A stretch of DNA of 40,163 nt, taken from positions 1 through 40,163 of the IMG/VR virus record IMGVR_UViG_3300008108_000374, one strand, 5' to 3'. The stretch is from a virus. Numbering within the stretch: position 1 is the first letter of the stretch; the number at the start of each line of letters is the position of its first letter. Of this stretch, positions 9,751-30,816 are shown piece after piece. The notes beneath the pieces are model-generated. The model did not search any database and was not told the origin of the DNA. It worked only from the letters and a program-made list of their open reading frames with translations. The position numbers and the translations under genes are program-made.

Positions 9751-9972
9751 TCATTTTGACTTTGCCGCTACAAAATCAGGGGCATCTTTGACGAGGTTGT
9801 ATACCTCGCCCAATACCTGACAGCGCCCCTGTGGGACTGCCGGGTTGTTTACTGCGAGTGGCAACTTGGATAGCTCGTGCTCATACCACATCTTAAGCCA
9901 GTCCCGAACTTCGGGGTACTGGCGCGAGACGTTCGCAAGCGCTTGCATGGCCTTGTCGTCAGGACGGATCAT
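9751..9972 (-). CDS. Small head-region protein, unknown function
   Basis: 73 residues between portal and scaffold: MIRPDDKAMQALANVSRQYPEVRDWLKMWYEHELSKLPLA, then VPQGRCQVLGEVYNLVKDAPDF. Mostly helical. Proteins of this length with a LGEVYNLVKDAP-like ending are common in this slot in environmental phages, but I know no function. Its ATG overlaps the portal stop (ATGA), so it is made together with portal. An accessory of head assembly or portal nucleation is possible. Confidence 0.75.
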   Translation of the reverse strand: MIRPDDKAMQALANVSRQYPEVRDWLKMWYEHELSKLPLAVNNPAVPQGRCQVLGEVYNLVKDAPDFVAAKSK

Positions 9973-12023
9973 GCCGCCCTCCCACTTACACGGTTACTGA
10001 CTGTGTTTCCATCCATACCACCTTTGGGAGAACCGTCCGGTTGAGTAGGTGTAGGCTCTTGTTGCGATTGCTGTGCAGCAATCTGAGCCTGCGCCCTACC
10101 AAGGAACGCAGTTTTCTCCCGAGATGGAACGATGTCATCCACAGGCATTTGTAGACCTTTTGCGATCTCACGAAGAATCGCTGCTCTACCATCCTTACCG
10201 ACAATCTCCATGTCGATCTGATTGGCAGTTGCATTAAGGAATTCGATACGGCGCACGTTAACGGTCTCTTTGACCGCCAAGTTAACTGCGCCTCTAGCCA
10301 TGACTTGTGCGTCGCCCTTGATGGACTCGTCCTCGTCGTAGCGCATGTTGTACACAAACTGGCGTTGCACGATGGGCTTAATCACATCGCTGTCAATGTG
10401 CATCACGACTTGGCGAATACCCTTACCGGATGCGCCCATCAGCATAGACAAGCCAGAAGAAGTACGGCCAGCGCCTTGTACATTCAAGTCACCATACATG
10501 TACGCTGGAATACCGGAGTGCTCATCAGCCAACTTGCTGAATCTCTCGTACACAGCCATGAGTGTGTTTGCATTGTCTTCAGGTTGCGTAAACCGTACGG
10601 CAGGGGCACTTGAACCAATAGGATCGTTGAGCGTCTGCCAGATTTTCCAAGGGTGAATCTGTGTGATGTCCTCGTTGGGCGGCAACCGTTCAAGGTTAAC
10701 TTCGACCTGTGGGCCAGAAGCAATACCCATGTTGTTGACCAAGGCCCGTGCTGAAGCATTACAGACGTTCTGCACGTCCTCAATGACTTCGGGAATAGCC
10801 TTACCCCAGAATGAGCCGGGGCACTTGATAAACGAGGTTTTAGCGTATGGCTTCTCACCAAGGGGGTCGTAATTCAATACAGCCTTGATGGTGTAGTTGC
10901 CTACTTGCCAGATGTTGGTGTCATACTCACGAGCAGAATCAGGAACATCCTCCTCAGTAAGCCCCCACTCGATCAACATCTTTCCAGATACTTTGCCCCA
11001 GAACTCCAAGGCATCGAACATCTCAGTTGGGCGCATGTGCGAATAGAACTTACGCTCTTGCTCCTGCTTGAGAAGCTCCACATCCATGTTGATCCAAGAC
11101 TGACCATTGCCAATATCAAGGACTTTGCGAATAGCATCATCGTCGTAGCCGGGGACACCTACCAAGTCGGCAAGTTCCATTCGGCTCAAGCGGTGATGCT
11201 CAAACAGGTAGCCATCTTTAATGTTGGTAATGCCCGGCTCAGGATAGATACGGAACGGATCAACTCGTTCATGTTCTGGCGCAATTCGCTCAATAGGTTT
11301 GGCGATAGTCTTGCCTGTAACAGGATCAGCTTCCCATCCGAGCGCACGTTGCCTACGGACAACCGGCCCTTTGATAAATGCTGAAGGGTATGTCACCAAG
11401 TCGGTAACAAAATCATTGAAGGCCTCAGCCCAGCCGCCTTGAGCAAACTGGTCGCTGATCTTGATCTTCATCTTGTCGGCACGGTTCTGTGCTTCTTGCA
11501 AAATATTAAAGCGATAGTCTTGTGCGACCATCTCTTTGATCTCGCTCATTGCAGCAGGGTTAGGCGCTTGCCCAGTTTCCTCGACAAGTTTTAAAACCTT
11601 GTACGCAAAAATTTCTTGGATAGCCTTCGACTGCTGCGGAGACATATCAGGGATTGGAGTCGCCTGAATATCCCAAGGAGGTGTACCGCTATCAAGCAAA
11701 ATGTCTCGCAGCCAAGACTCGGCTGCACGGCACTTCACTTCAGTAATCATCATGTATATGTCAGAGCCGCCCTGTGCTTTGATGTCACGAGCTTTATCGT
11801 CTTCGTACTCACCATTGCGCTGGCGTAGCGCCTTAAGCATCTTCTGCTCAATGGGTTTCTTCGCTTGTTGTGCAGCGTCCCAGCACTCACGCAGATAAGC
11901 CGTAAGCCCAAGGATCAACGGCTGACTCTGGCGTTCCGCCAAAGCTTTATCCGACGCCTCTTTGTCCTGTTGACGAGAGAGATCAGAGTTACTTACAACG
12001 CGAAGAAATGACAGACCCGCCAT
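9969..12023 (-). CDS. Portal protein
   Basis: 684 residues, the size range of P22-type portals. The N-terminal region (AYLRECWDAAQQAKKPIEQKMLKALRQRNGEYE) and SDIYMMITEVKCRAAESWLRDILLD are typical of the wing and clip region. Further blocks follow: PSAFIKGPVVRRQRALGWE, ERVDPFRIYPEPG, YLFEHHRLSRMELADL. The C-terminal part has the long stem helix region (RFSKLADEHSGIPAYMYGDLNVQ and GRTSSGLSMLMGASGKGIRQV), a hallmark of this portal group. The C-terminus is Gln/Pro-rich. It forms the dodecameric ring at the head vertex through which TerL drives DNA. The start is supported by GAGG upstream. Four-base overlap with the next gene. Confidence 0.92.
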   Translation of the reverse strand: MAGLSFLRVVSNSDLSRQQDKEASDKALAERQSQPLILGLTAYLRECWDAAQQAKKPIEQKMLKALRQRNGEYEDDKARDIKAQGGSDIYMMITEVKCRAAESWLRDILLDSGTPPWDIQATPIPDMSPQQSKAIQEIFAYKVLKLVEETGQAPNPAAMSEIKEMVAQDYRFNILQEAQNRADKMKIKISDQFAQGGWAEAFNDFVTDLVTYPSAFIKGPVVRRQRALGWEADPVTGKTIAKPIERIAPEHERVDPFRIYPEPGITNIKDGYLFEHHRLSRMELADLVGVPGYDDDAIRKVLDIGNGQSWINMDVELLKQEQERKFYSHMRPTEMFDALEFWGKVSGKMLIEWGLTEEDVPDSAREYDTNIWQVGNYTIKAVLNYDPLGEKPYAKTSFIKCPGSFWGKAIPEVIEDVQNVCNASARALVNNMGIASGPQVEVNLERLPPNEDITQIHPWKIWQTLNDPIGSSAPAVRFTQPEDNANTLMAVYERFSKLADEHSGIPAYMYGDLNVQGAGRTSSGLSMLMGASGKGIRQVVMHIDSDVIKPIVQRQFVYNMRYDEDESIKGDAQVMARGAVNLAVKETVNVRRIEFLNATANQIDMEIVGKDGRAAILREIAKGLQMPVDDIVPSREKTAFLGRAQAQIAAQQSQQEPTPTQPDGSPKGGMDGNTVSNRVSGRAA

Positions 12024-12027
12024 TCTG

Positions 12028-12846
12028 TTACCTCTTATCTTTCTGCTGTTTCTTCAAGTATTCATCCATTGTTTGCTGGATAATTACTTTGCCTTGCGTA
12101 AGCTTTTGCGCAAGTTTGTTCCGCATTTCTTCTGCTCCATATACACTCTTAGAGTCTTTGATGGCCGCGACAGCATTTGCTTGTTGGGACGGAGCAGCAG
12201 CGCGTCGGCCCTGTTCAGTCTTCAGTTGTTGCAGCCCCTCTGTTTCACGTGAAACAGTTTGGACAGGTGCAGCACCAGCGGTTACTTTGCCGCCTTCACC
12301 AATCGTTGGTATAGCGTTACCACTGCGGATCGCAGCGTTTGATAGGCGGCGTTCATACGCAGCTTGGCGTTCATTAGCAAGTTTTTGAGCATCACTTTTG
12401 TACTCCTCACCATAAAATTTAACATCCGCAGGTTTTGCAATGTCAGGCATTGCTTCCATCTTCGGGGCTTGCCCACGAAACACAGTAGGCGCTTTTGCAG
12501 CTTCTTCCAGTGTAGTGTCGTAGGGATCGTACTCGAGACCAGTTTTAGGTTTTGGTGCTGGTGCAGGTGCAGGTGCAGCAGGCGTAGGTATATTAGGTGA
12601 TGGCTGTGTAGCCGTTGGGTTCGGTGCTGGCGCTGTTTCCCTCATTGGCTGGTTAACTACTGGGCCAGCATATCCAATTGGGGGCATACCGTTCACTGCA
12701 ACATTCCAAGGGGCAGAACCCGGCGTGGGCATTATCACCACGTGTTTAGAGATGGTGGGCGAATATCTTTGCGATGTCATCCCCGTCGAAGCCATTTTGG
12801 GATTCGTCGAGATGATCGTGAAACTTTTACCAACTTGTTTAGCCAA
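12028..12846 (-). CDS. Pro/Ala-rich late protein, TTG start, contains parS
   Basis: 272 residues, not recognised. I take the TTG at 12846 as start because AGGAGG lies five bases before it; the first internal ATG is at residue 18 and lacks such a site. The N-terminal 60 residues may fold (FTIISTNPKMASTGMTSQRYSP). Residues about 70-105 are Pro/Ala-rich and disordered (PAAPAPAPAPKPK). The C-terminal half is helical and charged (DAQKLANERQAAYERRLSNAA and QKLTQGKVIIQQTMDEYLKKQQ). It is the first gene after a strong promoter and just precedes portal, so it may be an internal head or packaging accessory. Codons for TVSRETE contain a perfect parS palindrome (12241-12256). Confidence 0.75.
   Translation of the reverse strand: MAKQVGKSFTIISTNPKMASTGMTSQRYSPTISKHVVIMPTPGSAPWNVAVNGMPPIGYAGPVVNQPMRETAPAPNPTATQPSPNIPTPAAPAPAPAPKPKTGLEYDPYDTTLEEAAKAPTVFRGQAPKMEAMPDIAKPADVKFYGEEYKSDAQKLANERQAAYERRLSNAAIRSGNAIPTIGEGGKVTAGAAPVQTVSRETEGLQQLKTEQGRRAAAPSQQANAVAAIKDSKSVYGAEEMRNKLAQKLTQGKVIIQQTMDEYLKKQQKDKR
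12241..12256. promoter_or_regulatory. Perfect bacterial parS (ParB-binding) site
   Basis: TGTTTCACGTGAAACA is a perfect 16-base palindrome and identical to the canonical chromosomal parS recognised by the HTH domain of bacterial ParB. It extends to 18 bases with flanking C and G. It lies inside the Pro/Ala-rich late gene. I found no second full copy in the window, and no ParB or ParA homologue among the translated genes, so any binding would be by host ParB. Identity to parS is seen; function is inferred. Confidence 0.8.
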
Positions 12847-12991: not shown

Positions 12992-14380
12992 TCATGTCCA
13001 TCCGGCTGAAGCAACTTGTTTGACTTCTCTACGTCTAGGTAAAGATGTACCTTCTCCAACACTGGTGATATGCAGCATCAGATACTGTAGCGCTTCAGCT
13101 ACGTGCGAATGTTTGTTCTTGTCAATATCGCCGTCGCCCTTGGGCTTGTAGCGATACCCACCCATCATGGCGGCTTTAAGCTGTGTGCACCCCGGGTCTA
13201 CGAGAAACGCTGGGTCGCCGTCCACCTGACGCATAAGGAAGTCATCGACCGCATTGATCCGTGCTGAGATGTTGTTGGTCTTAGCAGGGATAACCCTTAG
13301 TCCTTCTGCTTTGATGATGTCCACCGCCGAGCGTTCATCGGTTTGCGCCCGTTGTATGCCCGCTGGGTCGGTAACGACCATAATGGGCGCACCACCGAAC
13401 CGTTCGTAGATCAGTGGTTTGAGCATGGTACGCACGAAACGCTGGATGCCCATGTCAAACGATACACACTCAGCAAGTATCAGGGCACGACCCCGAGGGT
13501 CTTGCTGCCCTAGGATGGCTGCTGGGGTAAGCCCTAAGTCCATGCCTACAACAATGGGGCGAACTCCATTACTGATGGGGCGGAGCTTTTGCTTAGCCAT
13601 GTGGTAGTCCGGCCTGAAGTATTTGTACACCGGCATACCCGCCGATGACAGCCCATACTCCCCGTCGATGTATACACGGATGTATTCTTCGCTGCGGCCC
13701 TGAGTATCGTAGTAGCCTTCCGGCAAGTTCTCGATATTCTCCGCATACACGCTACGTCCAGAGGGCTGTTTAAAAACATCCCACCCGTTGTTGTTAGGAG
13801 ATACGCCGTCCTTAACGTCCAGCCCCTCCATCTGGTAGTACCACCACGTATCCATAGTCGGTGGGTTGGTGTCACCCCACATCCCATGCCACGTCGGGCC
13901 TCCGTCTTTGGCCGAGGGAAATCGTCCGATACGTTTGGACATCGCGTCCATGATGTCGGGGTGAATGTCTCGGCACTCATTGAACCAAGCGAAGGACAAC
14001 TCCAACGAGTTCAAGTTGGCAACGTCGTCTGCATCGTCCAGTGCTCGGAACATAATCTCGCACTCGATGTCGCCCACTTTGAAGAAGTAAGTCTTGGTGG
14101 TGCGCATGTAGTCACCACACACTCCCGGTGGAAACCAATCGAGGAACGTCTTGATCGTCGTGTCCTGCAACTGGCGTGCAGTCTCACGCACAATCGCCGC
14201 CCGTGTTTTGCGTATGCCTTGGGCGTTGGGTTCTTGCATCGACGCTCGCCGCACAATCTCAAACGAACAAGTTACGGACTTGCCGGAGCCGACCGGCCCC
14301 ATCAACACCCGCATCTTGCGGTCTGACTCCATGAACTTCTCGCCGGTTGGCGGCGGTGTGTAGTCAATATCAAGTGCCAT
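12992..14380 (-). CDS. terL: Terminase large subunit (TerL)
   Basis: 462 residues. The N-terminal ATPase has Walker A GPVGSGKS (28-35) and a Walker B-like strand LELSFAWFNE with catalytic Glu135. The C-terminal RNase H-like nuclease has acidic residues in GMDLGLTPA (Asp281), VVTDPAG (Asp338) and the terminal DKNKHSHVAEALQY block (Asp420, Glu429). It is the packaging motor that cuts and threads DNA through the portal. Length is normal for podovirus-like TerL. The start overlaps the stop of the collar gene (TAATG). An intrinsic terminator follows about 50 bases after the stop codon. The call is secure from motifs. Confidence 0.95.
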   Translation of the reverse strand: MALDIDYTPPPTGEKFMESDRKMRVLMGPVGSGKSVTCSFEIVRRASMQEPNAQGIRKTRAAIVRETARQLQDTTIKTFLDWFPPGVCGDYMRTTKTYFFKVGDIECEIMFRALDDADDVANLNSLELSFAWFNECRDIHPDIMDAMSKRIGRFPSAKDGGPTWHGMWGDTNPPTMDTWWYYQMEGLDVKDGVSPNNNGWDVFKQPSGRSVYAENIENLPEGYYDTQGRSEEYIRVYIDGEYGLSSAGMPVYKYFRPDYHMAKQKLRPISNGVRPIVVGMDLGLTPAAILGQQDPRGRALILAECVSFDMGIQRFVRTMLKPLIYERFGGAPIMVVTDPAGIQRAQTDERSAVDIIKAEGLRVIPAKTNNISARINAVDDFLMRQVDGDPAFLVDPGCTQLKAAMMGGYRYKPKGDGDIDKNKHSHVAEALQYLMLHITSVGEGTSLPRRREVKQVASAGWT

Positions 14381-14650: not shown

Positions 14651-14860
14651 TCAAACTCCTTGGTTAAGTGGTTGAACAATCATAACGATGAACTCACGCC
14701 CATGTTTCTTACTGCGGCTGATCTTGGTCTGGAACGAAACGCTGGCGCGACCAAGTGCGTTCTCAAGCATGATGGCTTCGGAGGCGCTTCGTAGTTTCAC
14801 GGCTTTAAAGCCGTCATAGGTTTGGGTGAATAGGTCTTCAATGTTCGATGGGAGTTGCAT
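14651..14860 (-). CDS. Small protein in packaging operon, unknown function
   Basis: 69 residues: MQLPSNIEDLFTQTYDGFKAVKLRSASEAIMLENALGR, then ASVSFQTKISRSKKHGREFIVMIVQPLN. It looks like a compact alpha/beta domain with a final beta-hairpin of hydrophobic residues (EFIVMIVQPL). It overlaps the TerS-like gene by 23 bases in another frame, a long overlap that is unusual here; both frames are open and both have sensible starts, so I accept both. No family recognised. The ATG lies in the last codons of the TerS-like gene, implying translational coupling. Confidence 0.6.
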   Translation of the reverse strand: MQLPSNIEDLFTQTYDGFKAVKLRSASEAIMLENALGRASVSFQTKISRSKKHGREFIVMIVQPLNQGV

Positions 14861-15314
14861 CCATTACCTCAGATTGATCGTCAATAATTTGTACCGCGTG
14901 CTGTTGGCCGCCCAAGTTTATATTGATGCGAACCCCGCCGCCATTGCCTTCGTTGGTAACTTCACCCTTTGGCTCCAAGCCTGCCCACTTAACCGTGGAC
15001 TTAATCAGGTCGGCCTTGACTGCGGGTGAAACTGCTGAGTCGTGGATCAACATCCAAGATGTGGTGAGGAGTTCTTCAGCTTGCGCACGCGCCTTGAGCT
15101 TGAACGTCATCCCTTTACTGCGGATTTCCTCACGGTAGGCATCCACCTTCTTGAGGAAGATGGGATCAGCATTGAACGACAGAACATCGGTAGACGAAAT
15201 CTGATGCCGCCCTATAACTTCTTGCAGCGTCTCTCCGCTACCTTCCAAAGTTAGAGCAATATCGAACGCCAGCCTGTCTGACCATTTGGTGTGGTGAAGT
15301 GGTAGGTTGTCCAT
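14838..15314 (-). CDS. terS: Putative terminase small subunit (TerS)
   Basis: 158 residues, first gene of the left operon and two small genes ahead of TerL. It has a helical DNA-recognition-like N-terminus (DRLAFDIALTLEGSGETLQEVIGRHQIS) with a GETLQEVIGRHQIS helix-turn-helix pattern. A central helix YREEIRSKGMTFKLKARAQAEELL follows, and then SPAVKADLIKSTVKWAGLEPK, a block typical of phage small terminase-like proteins. TerS recognises the packaging site and loads TerL. The ATG has no clear ribosome site but is only eight bases past a -10 box (15323-15328), so the mRNA may be nearly leaderless. Confidence moderate to good. Confidence 0.75.
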   Translation of the reverse strand: MDNLPLHHTKWSDRLAFDIALTLEGSGETLQEVIGRHQISSTDVLSFNADPIFLKKVDAYREEIRSKGMTFKLKARAQAEELLTTSWMLIHDSAVSPAVKADLIKSTVKWAGLEPKGEVTNEGNGGGVRININLGGQQHAVQIIDDQSEVMDATPIEH

Positions 15315-15322
15315 GAGCGCAG

Positions 15323-15349
15323 ATTATGGCAGATAGACGGATGTGTCAA
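15323..15349 (-). promoter_or_regulatory. Leftward promoter of the TerS/TerL operon
   Basis: On the minus strand a perfect TTGACA (15349-15344) is followed after 15 bases by CATAAT (15328-15323), five of six to consensus. The spacer is two bases shorter than ideal. The expected start point falls at or just before the ATG of the TerS-like gene, which has no ribosome site. Confidence 0.55.
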
Positions 15350-16385: not shown

Positions 16386-16556
16386 GTCTTAAAAAACCTT
16401 ACACACACCACACAGCACGACCAAGGGGGATCATTCCTCTTATATAGCTTATATAAACCATACGTCGGGGGGTCGCGGCTCGCTTTAAAGCCTGATTTAC
16501 ACGCAATGTGAACACTTTCCCTGTAATTTCGTGGCTATAACCTGTTGAAACTTTAC

Positions 16557-16934
16557 AATAATCTGTGAATTTCCAACAATCTGTAAATAACTTGACGCAA
16601 TTTACCCCTTTTTAGATGGTATAACATTACACTTTACAATTAAAAAAGCCAATGGAATCAACCACTTACAAATAATATCCATAGAGAGACAATCTATATA
16701 ATCTGTATAATCTACACTTTTTATATACCCTTTCCTCAGCAAGATGCTCTCTACAAATTTTTATTTTTGCGGTGTGCAACTTCATTTCTAAAACCACAGA
16801 TTATTTAGATTGTTTAACTTGACACACCCCACAACACCAGTATTCATGCGGGTTTCAACCCTTTTCAAACAATCTGTAACACCCTAACTTGACACAGATT
16901 GTTCACCTGTGTTAGCAACATCTTTTAGATTGTT
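16557..16934. repeat. Array of about ten AACAATCTGT-type motifs
   Basis: Copies in direct orientation: 16557-16566, 16575-16584, 16688-16697 (variant), 16697-16706, 16706-16715 (variant), 16868-16877. Copies in inverse orientation: 16796-16805, 16806-16814, 16894-16903, 16926-16934. The consensus is AA(C/T)AATCTGT, often followed by A or G then A. Exact AACAATCTGT occurs at 16575, 16868 and, inverted, 16894. The pairs at 16796/16806 and 16868/16894 are close. This is iteron-like or operator-like DNA. Confidence 0.7.
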
Positions 16935-16986
16935 TACAGCCTTAAACAATACTTTACACACCTATTCTCTTGGAGAACGAGGCCGC

Positions 16987-17080
16987 ACTTGACGTTTTTT
17001 CGGGTCGGCGGTAGTCTGCCCTCAGCGGTCGGCGTTTTGCTTACCGCACTTTCAGTAACCTACTTTACAAGGAGCCAATC
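16987..17080 (+). promoter_or_regulatory. Second early leader, related to the one at 15538
   Basis: ACTTGACGTTTTT (16987) and GTCGGCGGT (17004-17012) are shared with the leader before 15658. A third shared block of the form GGT.GGCG..TTG.(C).TACCGC is at 17027-17047, where GCGGT can pair with ACCGC. AAGGAG precedes the ATG. The boxA seen in the first leader is not present here. TTGACG has no clear -10 partner, so the promoter itself is uncertain. Confidence 0.5.
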
Positions 17081-20631: not shown

Positions 20632-21797
20632 TGACTAGCGTAATGCCTAAAGAGGAGGTGAAACCAATCACCCCACAAGAAGAAGCCAAGATGAGGATAC
20701 GTCTTGCGAAAGCAAAGACTGCACTCATACTTGAGCATCCGTTCATTGGTACTGTGGCACTCAACATGCCGTTCGTATTGAGCCGTGACATACCGACTGC
20801 CTCAACGAATGGCAAGCGTGTGCAGTTTAACCCTGACTTCTGTAGCGAGTTGACAGATGAGGAGTTGAAGTTCCTTGTAGCACATGAGTGTTTACATCCG
20901 ATGCTTGAGCACAACTACCGCAGACAAGAGAGACAACACCGCCGTTGGAACAAAGCGGCTGACTACGTAATCAACAAGTTGCTAGTCGATGACAACATTG
21001 GCAAGATGCCTGAGCGTGGCTTACTCAGCGATGCTATCTACCAAGCAGGCAACGGAACATCCGATGGTATCTACAACATCCTTGAAGATGATGAGGGTGG
21101 TGGAGGTGGTGGGTACGGCGGAGATGGCGACCCTCTCGACAACTGTGAAGATGCTGAGGGTTCACAAGCCGAGCAAGCACAAGAGCAAGCCGAGTGGAAA
21201 GTCAAGGTAGCACAAGCGGCACAAGCCGCAAAGATGATGGGCAAGTTGAGTGCAGGCATGGAACGACTGGTTGACGAGGTACTCAGACCTAAGGTTGACT
21301 GGCGTGATGTGATGCAACGCTTCCTTGTCAAGTGTAAGAACGATAACCGCTCATGGGCTAGACCTAACCGCCGCTTTATAGCGCAGGGTATGTACCTACC
21401 AAGCACCAGTGGTGAGGTGATGGGTGAGGTGTTGTTTGCAGTGGACTGCTCAGGTTCAATCACTCAAGACATTATCAATCAGTTCTCTGCTGAGATTCGT
21501 ACAGTCAAGGAGGACATGTTCCCAACACGTATCCATGTGGTGTACTTTGATAGCGAGGTGAGCCACTACGAATCGTATGGTGTAGATGATGAGTTAGACA
21601 TCAAGCCACACGGCGGTGGAGGTACTGCGTTTAGCCCTGTGTTTGAGTACATCGAGGAACACGGCATCGAACCTATCGCAGTAGTGTTCCTGACTGACCT
21701 GTGTTGTGATGACTTCGGCAACGAACCCAACTGCCCTGTACTGTGGGTATCTACCGATGAGGGCACTGCACCTTTCGGAGAAGTGGTGCTGATGTGA
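20628..21797 (+). CDS. Metallopeptidase-like + VWA protein (DUF2201-like)
   Basis: 389 residues (ATG 20628; the ATG at 20631 has better spacing to GGAGG). The N-terminal domain has VAHECLH (85-90), an HExxH zinc motif, followed by WNKAADYVIN whose Asp is the likely third ligand; this is the DUF2201 N-terminal putative metallopeptidase. A Gly/Asp/Gln-rich linker spans about 153-190. The C-terminal VWA domain has the MIDAS motif DCSGS (273-277) in EVLFAVDCSGSIT, with a later GGGGTAF and VFLTDL. It is the classical partner of MoxR ATPases; together they probably form a phage chaperone-like complex acting on a protein target. It overlaps the upstream gene by four bases and the next by four. Confidence 0.88.
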   Translation: MMTSVMPKEEVKPITPQEEAKMRIRLAKAKTALILEHPFIGTVALNMPFVLSRDIPTASTNGKRVQFNPDFCSELTDEELKFLVAHECLHPMLEHNYRRQERQHRRWNKAADYVINKLLVDDNIGKMPERGLLSDAIYQAGNGTSDGIYNILEDDEGGGGGGYGGDGDPLDNCEDAEGSQAEQAQEQAEWKVKVAQAAQAAKMMGKLSAGMERLVDEVLRPKVDWRDVMQRFLVKCKNDNRSWARPNRRFIAQGMYLPSTSGEVMGEVLFAVDCSGSITQDIINQFSAEIRTVKEDMFPTRIHVVYFDSEVSHYESYGVDDELDIKPHGGGGTAFSPVFEYIEEHGIEPIAVVFLTDLCCDDFGNEPNCPVLWVSTDEGTAPFGEVVLM

Positions 21798-22651
21798 TTA
21801 CATACGGCGAGTTGTTTGCCGTGTGTTTGTTCGTAGGTATGGGTGTTTACATCTCGTACCTACGCTCTGAGATACGGAGTCATATTCGTGCAGGGGTTTT
21901 ACTCTCTGCTTTGGTACATGATGTTGCCGATGGCAACGTAGAAATAGAAAGGCATGAAGATGGTATTAGAGTCCGAGTTAAAAATGAGAATCGTTCGGAG
22001 TCTGCAAACCTTAGCAGACACTATCAGGGAACTGCTACAGTCAGATTTAGTAAAGACTTACAAGATGCAATCGTAAAGAACGCAGAGAATATGTTTAACA
22101 AGCAGATAAATGCGACAAGGGACAACATCAACACAACGTGGGGTGATCGTATCTACGAAATCATCCATCGTAAATACATCCCTGCTATGAACGCACTACC
22201 AGTGTGCTTCTTCACCGAAACTTCTAGCATGAAGGTAGCACGAATCAATGGTACAGATGTTGGTGGGTTGGAGTGCAAGATGACTAACTCACGCCCTGTA
22301 CCCCACACCCTACCCAAAGATGTACCTGCTAAAAACAAGGACTACTACGGCTACGAGTTAGTTGGTAACGAGTGGGAGGAGATAGCCCAAGAGATTGAGG
22401 ACTACCGCAACGATATCAAAGCAATAGCGCAGAAGAAAACAGACTTTGTTAGCGCCGTCAAGGAAGTTATCAAGGCACATGCAACGCTATCTCCTGCGTT
22501 GAAGATGTGGCCTCCACTGTGGGACTTGATACCTGAGGACTACAAGGATAGACACCGCCAAGTAGTAGAGCGTGAGAAGAAAGAGGTCGTAGTCAATGTT
22601 GACCTTGGTACTCTGACTGCTACTGTAGTAGCCCACAAACTCACACGCTGA
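21794..22651 (+). CDS. TM-anchored Nmad5-like protein
   Basis: 285 residues from a GTG that overlaps the upstream stop (GTGA). An N-terminal membrane segment (about 3-23, YGELFAVCLFVGMGVYISYL) is followed by a short spacer. From about residue 83 (VRFSKDLQDAIVKNAENMFNKQI) comes a domain that resembles Nmad5, a family linked to phage nucleotide modification loci, including IHRKYIPAMNALPVCFF and LSPALKMWPPLWDLIP. Nmad5 proteins normally start at the RFSKDL block, so the membrane part looks fused. No partner base-modification enzymes are visible in the window, so modification of DNA is uncertain. The family call is from memory of the pattern. Confidence 0.65.
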   Translation: MITYGELFAVCLFVGMGVYISYLRSEIRSHIRAGVLLSALVHDVADGNVEIERHEDGIRVRVKNENRSESANLSRHYQGTATVRFSKDLQDAIVKNAENMFNKQINATRDNINTTWGDRIYEIIHRKYIPAMNALPVCFFTETSSMKVARINGTDVGGLECKMTNSRPVPHTLPKDVPAKNKDYYGYELVGNEWEEIAQEIEDYRNDIKAIAQKKTDFVSAVKEVIKAHATLSPALKMWPPLWDLIPEDYKDRHRQVVEREKKEVVVNVDLGTLTATVVAHKLTR

Positions 22652-29579: not shown

Positions 29580-30539
29580 ATGAGCAACATCATCCCCGCA
29601 AACATCCAAGTCCCCGCCCACCTCGCTGGTCGTATCGGTGTGCCATCCGTATTGGCACAATCCCTTATGGGCGGTATCAGTAGTGGTGAATCATTCCCAC
29701 GTATCAGCATCAAGGGTAGCCGTTTCCGTATTGTCGAAGGCGGCAACGAGACTGTATTGGATAGCACCGCACTAGAAGTAGTGATCGTTGGTGCAAACCC
29801 TCGCCTGTCAAAGACTTGGTACGCCAAGGCATGGACAAAAGATTCTGAGCCAGTTGCACCTGACTGCTTCTCGCTTGATGGCATTGGCCCTGACCAGTCA
29901 TCGACAGACCCACAGAATGATCTTTGTGCTTCTTGCCCACAGAACGCATGGGGTTCTAAGATTGCTGAGAACGGACAACAAATCAAGGCTTGCTCCGATC
30001 AGAAACGTCTTGCTGTAGTGTCGGCTGATGACCCTGCTGGCCCTGTGTATCTCCTGCAAGTTACACCTGCCGCACTCAAGGGCTTCAATGCCTACGTCAA
30101 AGAACTCTCTATGCGTGGTATCCCACCTGAGATTGTCAAGACCAAGATCACATTTGATACGGACGCATCCTTCCCTAAATTAAAGTTTGGGTTGGCTGGA
30201 TTCCTTGACGATGAGTCGCAAGACGCAGTTGACAAGTTGTTCGGGTCTGCCGAAATCCGTGAGATTACTGGTGAGAATCCAAGGCAAGCAGTTGAAGTGC
30301 CAAAGATTGCCACCAAACCAGTTGCCCCGAAACCCGCTCCTAAGGTTGCTGAACCAGTAGAACCTGCACCTGCCCCTGCACCTACACAAGCGGCTACCCC
30401 AAAGCGTGGTTTCGGTGCATCTAAACCTGCGGCGAAAGCTACCCCTGCTGCTGCGGCCCCTGCGAACACACAAGCAGCAACATCTTTGGCTGACGAGATC
30501 GCTGCCCTTGTAGGTGAGGTGAACGCAGATGACGCCTAA
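29580..30539 (+). CDS. Possible ssDNA-binding protein
   Basis: 319 residues. The N-terminal 220 residues look like a beta-rich domain: RISIKGSRFRIVEGGN, EVVIVGANPRLSKTWYAK, then DLCASCPQNAWGSK with a CxxC and a later Cys (KACSDQKRLAVV), possible metal ligands. A long Pro/Ala/Lys-rich linker (about 240-300) leads to an acidic tail ending NADDA. A beta domain plus flexible linker and acidic tail is how bacterial SSB and T7 gp2.5 are built, and the gene sits beside the polymerase, nucleases and primase-helicase. No SSB family can be named. AAGGAG precedes the ATG. It overlaps the HTH gene by eleven bases. Confidence 0.6.
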   Translation: MSNIIPANIQVPAHLAGRIGVPSVLAQSLMGGISSGESFPRISIKGSRFRIVEGGNETVLDSTALEVVIVGANPRLSKTWYAKAWTKDSEPVAPDCFSLDGIGPDQSSTDPQNDLCASCPQNAWGSKIAENGQQIKACSDQKRLAVVSADDPAGPVYLLQVTPAALKGFNAYVKELSMRGIPPEIVKTKITFDTDASFPKLKFGLAGFLDDESQDAVDKLFGSAEIREITGENPRQAVEVPKIATKPVAPKPAPKVAEPVEPAPAPAPTQAATPKRGFGASKPAAKATPAAAAPANTQAATSLADEIAALVGEVNADDA

Positions 30540-30816
30540 ACCGCCTCTCGACTTTACAAAGGTCGAGTCGCTTCGCAGGCATATGCTCCTGACAACTACG
30601 GATTTATCCCAGTTGCTAGGAGTGTCCCGCATGACTTATTATGGATGGGTGAGAGGCAAGAAAATCCGCCAGTCCAACGATCAGTCAGTAAGGGCAATGC
30701 TACGCAAACTGCTTGCAGTAATGTCCGAACACCAGTGGCCTATGCCTGAGGTGATTGCGATGGAACAGAAGCAGAGGAAAGAGCGTCTCGTTGAGATATT
30801 GGGTAACTATAACTGA
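30529..30816 (+). CDS. HTH DNA-binding protein
   Basis: 95 residues. Residues 22-50 (TTTDLSQLLGVSRMTYYGWVRGKKIR) form a XRE/Cro-type helix-turn-helix, with LSQLLGVSRMTYYGW as the recognition pair. The C-terminal helices (RAMLRKLLAVMSEHQWP, VIAMEQKQRKERLVEIL) may dimerise. It could bind one of the phage control regions, such as the AACAATCTGT array, and so act as repressor or activator. It overlaps the previous gene by eleven bases and is followed by a strong RNA hairpin. Confidence 0.8.
   Translation: MTPKPPLDFTKVESLRRHMLLTTTDLSQLLGVSRMTYYGWVRGKKIRQSNDQSVRAMLRKLLAVMSEHQWPMPEVIAMEQKQRKERLVEILGNYN

Follow-up and report, generated by a model that had tools for sequence, protein, structure and literature searches.

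A chromosomal-type parS site in the late operon of a podovirus family without detectable partition genes, a candidate loading site for host ParB

The late operon and its genes

The window, by which we mean the whole 40,163-nt stretch analysed here, is a 40-kb fragment from a podovirus family with genomes of about 54 kb. At least 599 stretches encode a large terminase subunit (TerL) 88-100% identical to that of the window, and the longest of these records are 47-56 kb. The closest isolate by TerL is Pseudomonas phage Rollin, at 43% identity. The replication and structural genes are ordinary: a PolA-type polymerase, a helicase, a DUF927 primase/helicase and a T7-like portal. MAG bins were considered as a source for the host and set aside. 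Near-identical TerL occurs only in two bins, labelled actinobacterium and Paraglaciecola, and these could be binning errors.

The late operon is read from the minus strand (Table 1). Its opening gene is a probable TerS, which has a weak match to PHROG 36773 (unknown function) and lies about 700-1000 bp before TerL in relatives. Just 6 nt separate the -10 box of the promoter from the TerS ATG, in the window (15314-15349, minus strand) as in all relatives, so the late transcript looks leaderless. Further down is a 272-aa gene that has no PHROG match and no Pfam match above the cut-off. It carries the parS site that is our subject. The preliminary description placed this gene first in a portal/capsid operon. 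That is not correct, because TerS and TerL precede it behind a promoter at 15349-15321, and the site lies about 3.1 kb downstream of that promoter.

Table 1. Features of the late operon, in window coordinates
Feature	Position	Strand	Basis
Portal / head-tail connector protein, next downstream of the 272-aa gene	9969..12023	-	PHROG 332, E 9e-54
272-aa gene P0001, function not assigned, TerL-portal interval	12028..12846	-	TTG start with AGGAGG; Ala/Pro-rich middle
Exact 16-bp chromosomal-type parS TGTTTCACGTGAAACA	12241..12256	.	Motif scan; identical in 11/11 gene-bearing contigs
Terminase large subunit (TerL), upstream in the same operon	12992..14380	-	PHROG 2, E 1e-27
TerS (probable), opens the late operon	14838..15314	-	Position and conservation
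Late-operon promoter TTGACA-N17-TAATCT, sigma70-type	15321..15349	-	6 nt before TerS ATG

Two other regions of the window should be mentioned. Positions 16550-17000 are AT-rich and non-coding, and they separate the divergent early and late blocks. They hold the repeated motifs AACAATCTGTAA, TAACTTGACACA and TTTAGATTGTTTA together with 18-nt inverted repeats, which makes this stretch a candidate replication origin or regulatory region. The gene at 21794-22651 (plus strand) matches Nmad5, a domain associated with nucleotide modification, but weakly (E 2e-5, short of the Pfam cut-off); its product is possibly a DNA modification enzyme.

Partition genes were not detected. Those proteins of the window that were compared with Pfam include no ParA or ParB, in agreement with the preliminary description. 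A 53.6-kb relative (G001) that has the same 272-aa gene at 100% identity lacks hits to ParB_N (PF02195), AAA_31 (PF13614) and integrase (PF00589). No ParB_N, AAA_31/ParA or integrase was found in the other long family records (47-56 kb) either, with the caveat that these records may be incomplete and that PF02195 could miss a very divergent ParB. Judged from its gene content, in records that may be incomplete, the window phage looks lytic.

The site

A scan of the window matches TGTTTCACGTGAAACA with 0 mismatches, and the symmetric core is an 18-bp palindrome, CTGTTTCACGTGAAACAG, at 12240-12257. The palindrome is spelled by the codons (AC)T GTT TCA CGT GAA ACA, or T-V-S-R-E-T, in the minus-strand ORF at 12028-12846. 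These are residues 197-202 of the 272-aa gene, in a clade-specific linker. The exact 16-mer is expected about 1e-5 times per 40 kb. Even if the peptide TVSRET is taken as given, the palindrome would arise about once in 1,100 under the codon use of the phage itself. The preliminary description had called this a perfect parS and thought chance improbable. Both statements hold, and the collection-wide controls described below agree.

There is one parS per genome in the window phage, and it lies in a late phage operon and not near an oriC or a parAB operon. The sole further match in the window at up to 3 mismatches is at 16811-16826. It has 3, and shuffled sequences average 0.35 such matches, so a second parS at 16811 is ruled out as chance level. 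Half-parS heptamers are not enriched in the window either, with counts of 7 and 2 where about 5 would be expected.

Conservation and sister clades

The 272-aa gene is found in 11 contigs including the window. Its nucleotide sequences, 7 of them distinct, are 82-100% identical. The identical 16-mer occupies the same codons in all 11. A check for synonymous loss of the palindrome in close relatives, which had been proposed beforehand, found no synonymous change in the six codons. All six are invariant in the 7 distinct sequences and have variable codons on either side, with a naive p of 0.01-0.02 calculated from the remainder of the gene. This value is only suggestive, given how shallow the gene clade is.

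Four relatives with TerL 99-100% identical (L002-L005) have a 129-aa gene in place of the 272-aa gene, and no parS in the sequence covered. Since they lost the site along with the gene, parS must be dispensable and not essential. The 129-aa gene looks unrelated, but its first 25 or so codons are similar to those of the 272-aa gene. These four relatives suggest that the TerL-portal interval is a hotspot for gene swaps.

Most family members have no parS-type site at up to 2 mismatches. Two sister clades do have one, in both cases placed directly ahead of the late promoter's -35 box and stopping 2 nt short of TTGACA. Clade A (L247, L248, L035, L239, L270, L275 and L279) has TGTTTCACGTGAAACC and TGTTCCACGTGAAACC. 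Clade B (L037, L038, L040, L246 and L282) has TGTTTCACATGAAACA. The window, unlike these clades, has no parS-like site directly upstream of its -35 box. A TerL tree puts the gene-located group and each of the two promoter-located ones in a well-supported clade of its own, among lineages with no site (L028 was scored 'none', though its upstream sequence ends before the promoter). All three clades have their sites in the opening 3.5 kb of one and the same late operon. This distribution implies that parS-type sites were probably gained independently and repeatedly in one operon of the family.

The variants can be compared with known parS variation. The only departures of clade A from the canonical site are T5C and A16C. 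In the chromosome-1 parS of Burkholderia, change is tolerated at pairs 5-12 and 1-16, and T5C is tolerated best (PMC5450999). The clade B change, G9A, falls outside the positions tolerated in Burkholderia. The clade B variant is also the second site of an Enterococcus phage that carries an exact parS. Across IMG/VR, 50 stretches have a parS-like site no more than 7 nt upstream of TTGACA, where we estimate that less than 1 would be expected.

Recurrence across phage collections

The exact 16-mer occurs in at least 120 IMG/VR stretches, against 5 and 11 for two control palindromes with the same composition and the same CACGTG centre. The carriers among the 120 matches listed form 94 clusters without shared DNA. 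Of the 50,697 INPHARED records, 286 contain the 16-mer, against 0 and 0 for the control palindromes searched with 30-nt queries. Because many of the isolate records nearly duplicate one another, the independent count is nearer to the roughly two dozen organism names seen than to 286. Even that is well above the expectation of about 0.5. The recurrence is not random.

The carriers range from 27 to 72% GC, and both the phages and their hosts are unrelated. They include the lytic Listeria phages A511 and P100, phi29-like Bacillus and Enterococcus phages, Lactobacillus Harbinvirus, Roseobacter phage DSS3P8 (146 kb), the T5-like Vibrio phi 3 and many Arthrobacter, Microbacterium and Gordonia phages. 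Among the phi29-like phages B103, Goe1, BSP11 and Chedec 11 have an exact parS, which in B103 is within a structural gene. There are also ssDNA phages of 4-6 kb, namely gokushoviruses and one inovirus. Several phages have 2-6 sites. The positions vary too: the pre-early region of a T5-like phage, the interval between DNA polymerase and purA, structural genes, and the genomes of ssDNA phages. Near matches in isolates often fit known parS variation, for example TGTTCCACGTGAAACA.

Some individual carriers are worth describing. Bajarodino virus 6 (L289, PQ006149.1), recorded as an inovirus, has six exact parS on a circular genome of 5.9 kb. Spiroplasma phage 4 (L290) and other gokushoviruses carry exact parS on ssDNA microvirus genomes of 4-6 kb. 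In Vibrio phage phi 3 (L293) each terminal repeat has one exact parS and one parS with a single mismatch, next to the A1/A2 genes. If the analogy with T5 holds, these genes are the first into the cell. Four virus contigs (L097, L124, L133 and L143) have 3-5 exact parS within about 0.6-0.9 kb, like a chromosomal or plasmid centromere.

Partition genes are rare among the carriers tested. ParB_N was found in 4/36 IMG/VR parS contigs and in 1/15 of the isolate phages tested. AAA_31 was found in 0/50 and integrase in 3/50 of the records tested, a set that includes fragments and some family members without the exact site. TerL was found in about half of the tested records with one PHROG model.

We also considered an intergenic preference. 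Among the IMG/VR matches listed, 47/146 sites are in ORFs of at least 200 aa against 97 expected. The controls are equally biased (2/16 against 9.5 expected), so this was dropped as evidence.

No enterobacterial names are among the carrier names seen, which cover all but at most a few names of no more than 6 records each. Escherichia and Salmonella phages are plentiful in the collection (223 and 95 of 1,339 matches in one search). Enterobacteriaceae are among the few bacteria without chromosomal ParABS (PMC7022226), and their absence fits host ParB as the binder. It is not a formal test, since Mycobacterium and Pseudomonas, which are ParABS hosts, are absent from the carrier names seen as well.

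What may bind the site, and why

We argue that, on balance, the window site is probably an orphan parS, at which host ParB would load onto a phage without partition genes, most likely so as to attach phage DNA to the host segregation machinery. The parts of this argument are not equally strong. We are fairly confident that host ParB binds the site in vivo. Host ParB was already the candidate binder in the preliminary description, and the exact site, its conservation, the sister-clade sites, the enrichment across phages and the lack of a phage ParA or ParB all support it. That the site is maintained by selection is more likely than not. We assign the benefit to segregation or tethering of phage DNA tentatively, at rather less than even confidence.

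The proposed route is as follows. During infection ParB-CTP dimers of the host would recognise the palindrome and close as clamps. The clamps would slide across the neighbouring kilobases, which are the head of the TerS-TerL-portal-capsid operon. ParB1 of V. cholerae spreads over 16 kb (PMC7022226). The host would then treat the coated stretch as a centromere, with ParA binding over the nucleoid and SMC recruitment. The phage genome could thus be held on the nucleoid and co-segregated with it during delayed lysis, as with phi29 and Spo0J in sporulating cells. The same complex may also damp late transcription. A lone parS is a weak centromere. We favour a benefit at the level of DNA over control of a single gene because the positions of parS are so varied among phages.

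One can also suppose that host ParB binds but that selection favours control of the late operon and not DNA segregation. In the sister clades the complex would nucleate at the late promoter, in the window 3 kb into the operon, and it would repress or time late transcription in step with the host cell cycle. Late-gene regulation stays a serious rival in this family since its sites lie at the late promoter or within 3.5 kb of it. Three clades use the same part of one operon, the sites of clades A and B stop 2 nt short of TTGACA, and the 50 IMG/VR stretches also have parS-like sites no more than 7 nt upstream of it. ParB of P. aeruginosa represses genes adjoining intergenic parS (PMC7022226), and the host regulators CtrA and Spo0A serve phages for lytic deferment (PMC9437464). 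Against this, the window site is far from its promoter, and the diverse positions across phages point to a DNA-level role. Such regulation is not automatic either, because in B. subtilis without Spo0J the expression of parS-adjacent genes is unchanged (PMC7022226). We consider late-gene regulation unlikely to be the benefit, though not by so much that it can be passed over.

The site could instead be an accident in the window clade, an intragenic palindrome that persists only by recent common descent, irrespective of any function of parS in other phages. The close relatives diverge by no more than 18%, and the alignment of the 272-aa gene has other invariant runs of 7-8 codons. Some exact matches must be chance since the controls occur 5-11 times in IMG/VR. 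However, that makes at most about 5-11 of the 120 or more exact IMG/VR sites accidental. The low odds given the peptide, the invariant codons between variable ones and the related sites in the same operon of two sister clades also speak against chance, and we judge it quite improbable.

An operator for a phage-encoded protein, or for another host DNA-binding protein with the same palindrome preference, is very unlikely. Perfect palindromes beside -35 boxes do resemble operators, and the window has a gene for a small HTH protein (30529-30816). But the same 16-mer is in unrelated phages and hosts across the whole GC range, the ssDNA carriers are too small for a shared regulator, and near matches such as the one given above often follow known parS variation. 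Least credible of all is that the site disturbs host segregation during takeover, either as a decoy drawing ParB off the chromosome or by recruiting SMC: replicated genomes would multiply parS copies and other phages carry several sites, but a single site per genome titrates weakly early in infection.

Comparison with known systems

An orphan parS for host ParB has precedents. Phage phi29 is virulent, can suspend its lytic cycle, and its entrapment in spores is helped by host Spo0J/ParB, according to the account of Meijer 2005 in PMC9437464. Like phi29, the window phage looks virulent and has a parS in its genome, and no ParA/ParB or integrase of its own was found. It differs in that its family is unrelated and shows no spore link; dependence on ParB is known for phi29 from that same account, whereas for the window family the argument comes from sequence. 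The island SGI1 exploits the ParAB of IncC plasmids via its own parS (PMC10954446). It too is a mobile element without partition genes, and its parS copies sit upstream of promoters. Unlike the window phage it is an island, and it relies on a plasmid system whose parS is a different one, of 22 bp. The preliminary description knew of no such arrangement in a phage lacking ParABS. This did not stand, given the use of Spo0J by phi29 as recounted in PMC9437464 and the exact parS of B103 and Goe1. With phi29, as that account has it, and SGI1, the principle is already known.

Other comparisons are less close. The 16 bp of the window are identical to bacterial chromosomal parS, and clade A varies at the known tolerant positions 5 and 16, but this is a single phage site away from oriC and the parAB operon. 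Phage-plasmids (P1, N15 and mycobacterial extrachromosomal prophages) also have a partition site on a phage genome. However, they are temperate and have their own ParA/ParB, and none was found in the window or the family records. Alphaproteobacterial phages of several lineages defer lysis through host CtrA sites (PMC9437464). They have likewise converged on a DNA-binding protein of the host cell cycle, which they use via its site, although CtrA is a transcription factor and ParB is a segregation clamp.

A search of the open literature for parS in lytic phages found no survey. What appears to be new is the presence of the site in the window family, its repeated gains in one operon, and a broad, control-tested excess in phages without ParB.

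Implications

A wider reading of these data is that the orphan parS is a general, convergent element of largely lytic phages that loads ParB-CTP clamps, and that ParB is widely exploited beyond sporulating Bacillus. This reading spans dsDNA podo-, sipho- and myoviruses and apparently ssDNA micro- and inoviruses. We regard it as evenly balanced. If host ParB is such a common platform, phages that lack partition genes could be kept on the nucleoid or shared out with it. They could delay lysis, or time their late genes by the host cell cycle. ParB would then be a host factor of many phages, including the much-used Listeria phages A511 and P100. It would also bear on the apparent lack of sites in phages of the Enterobacteriaceae, which do without ParABS, and it would suggest a reason for the persistence of some 'lytic' phages as carried DNA.
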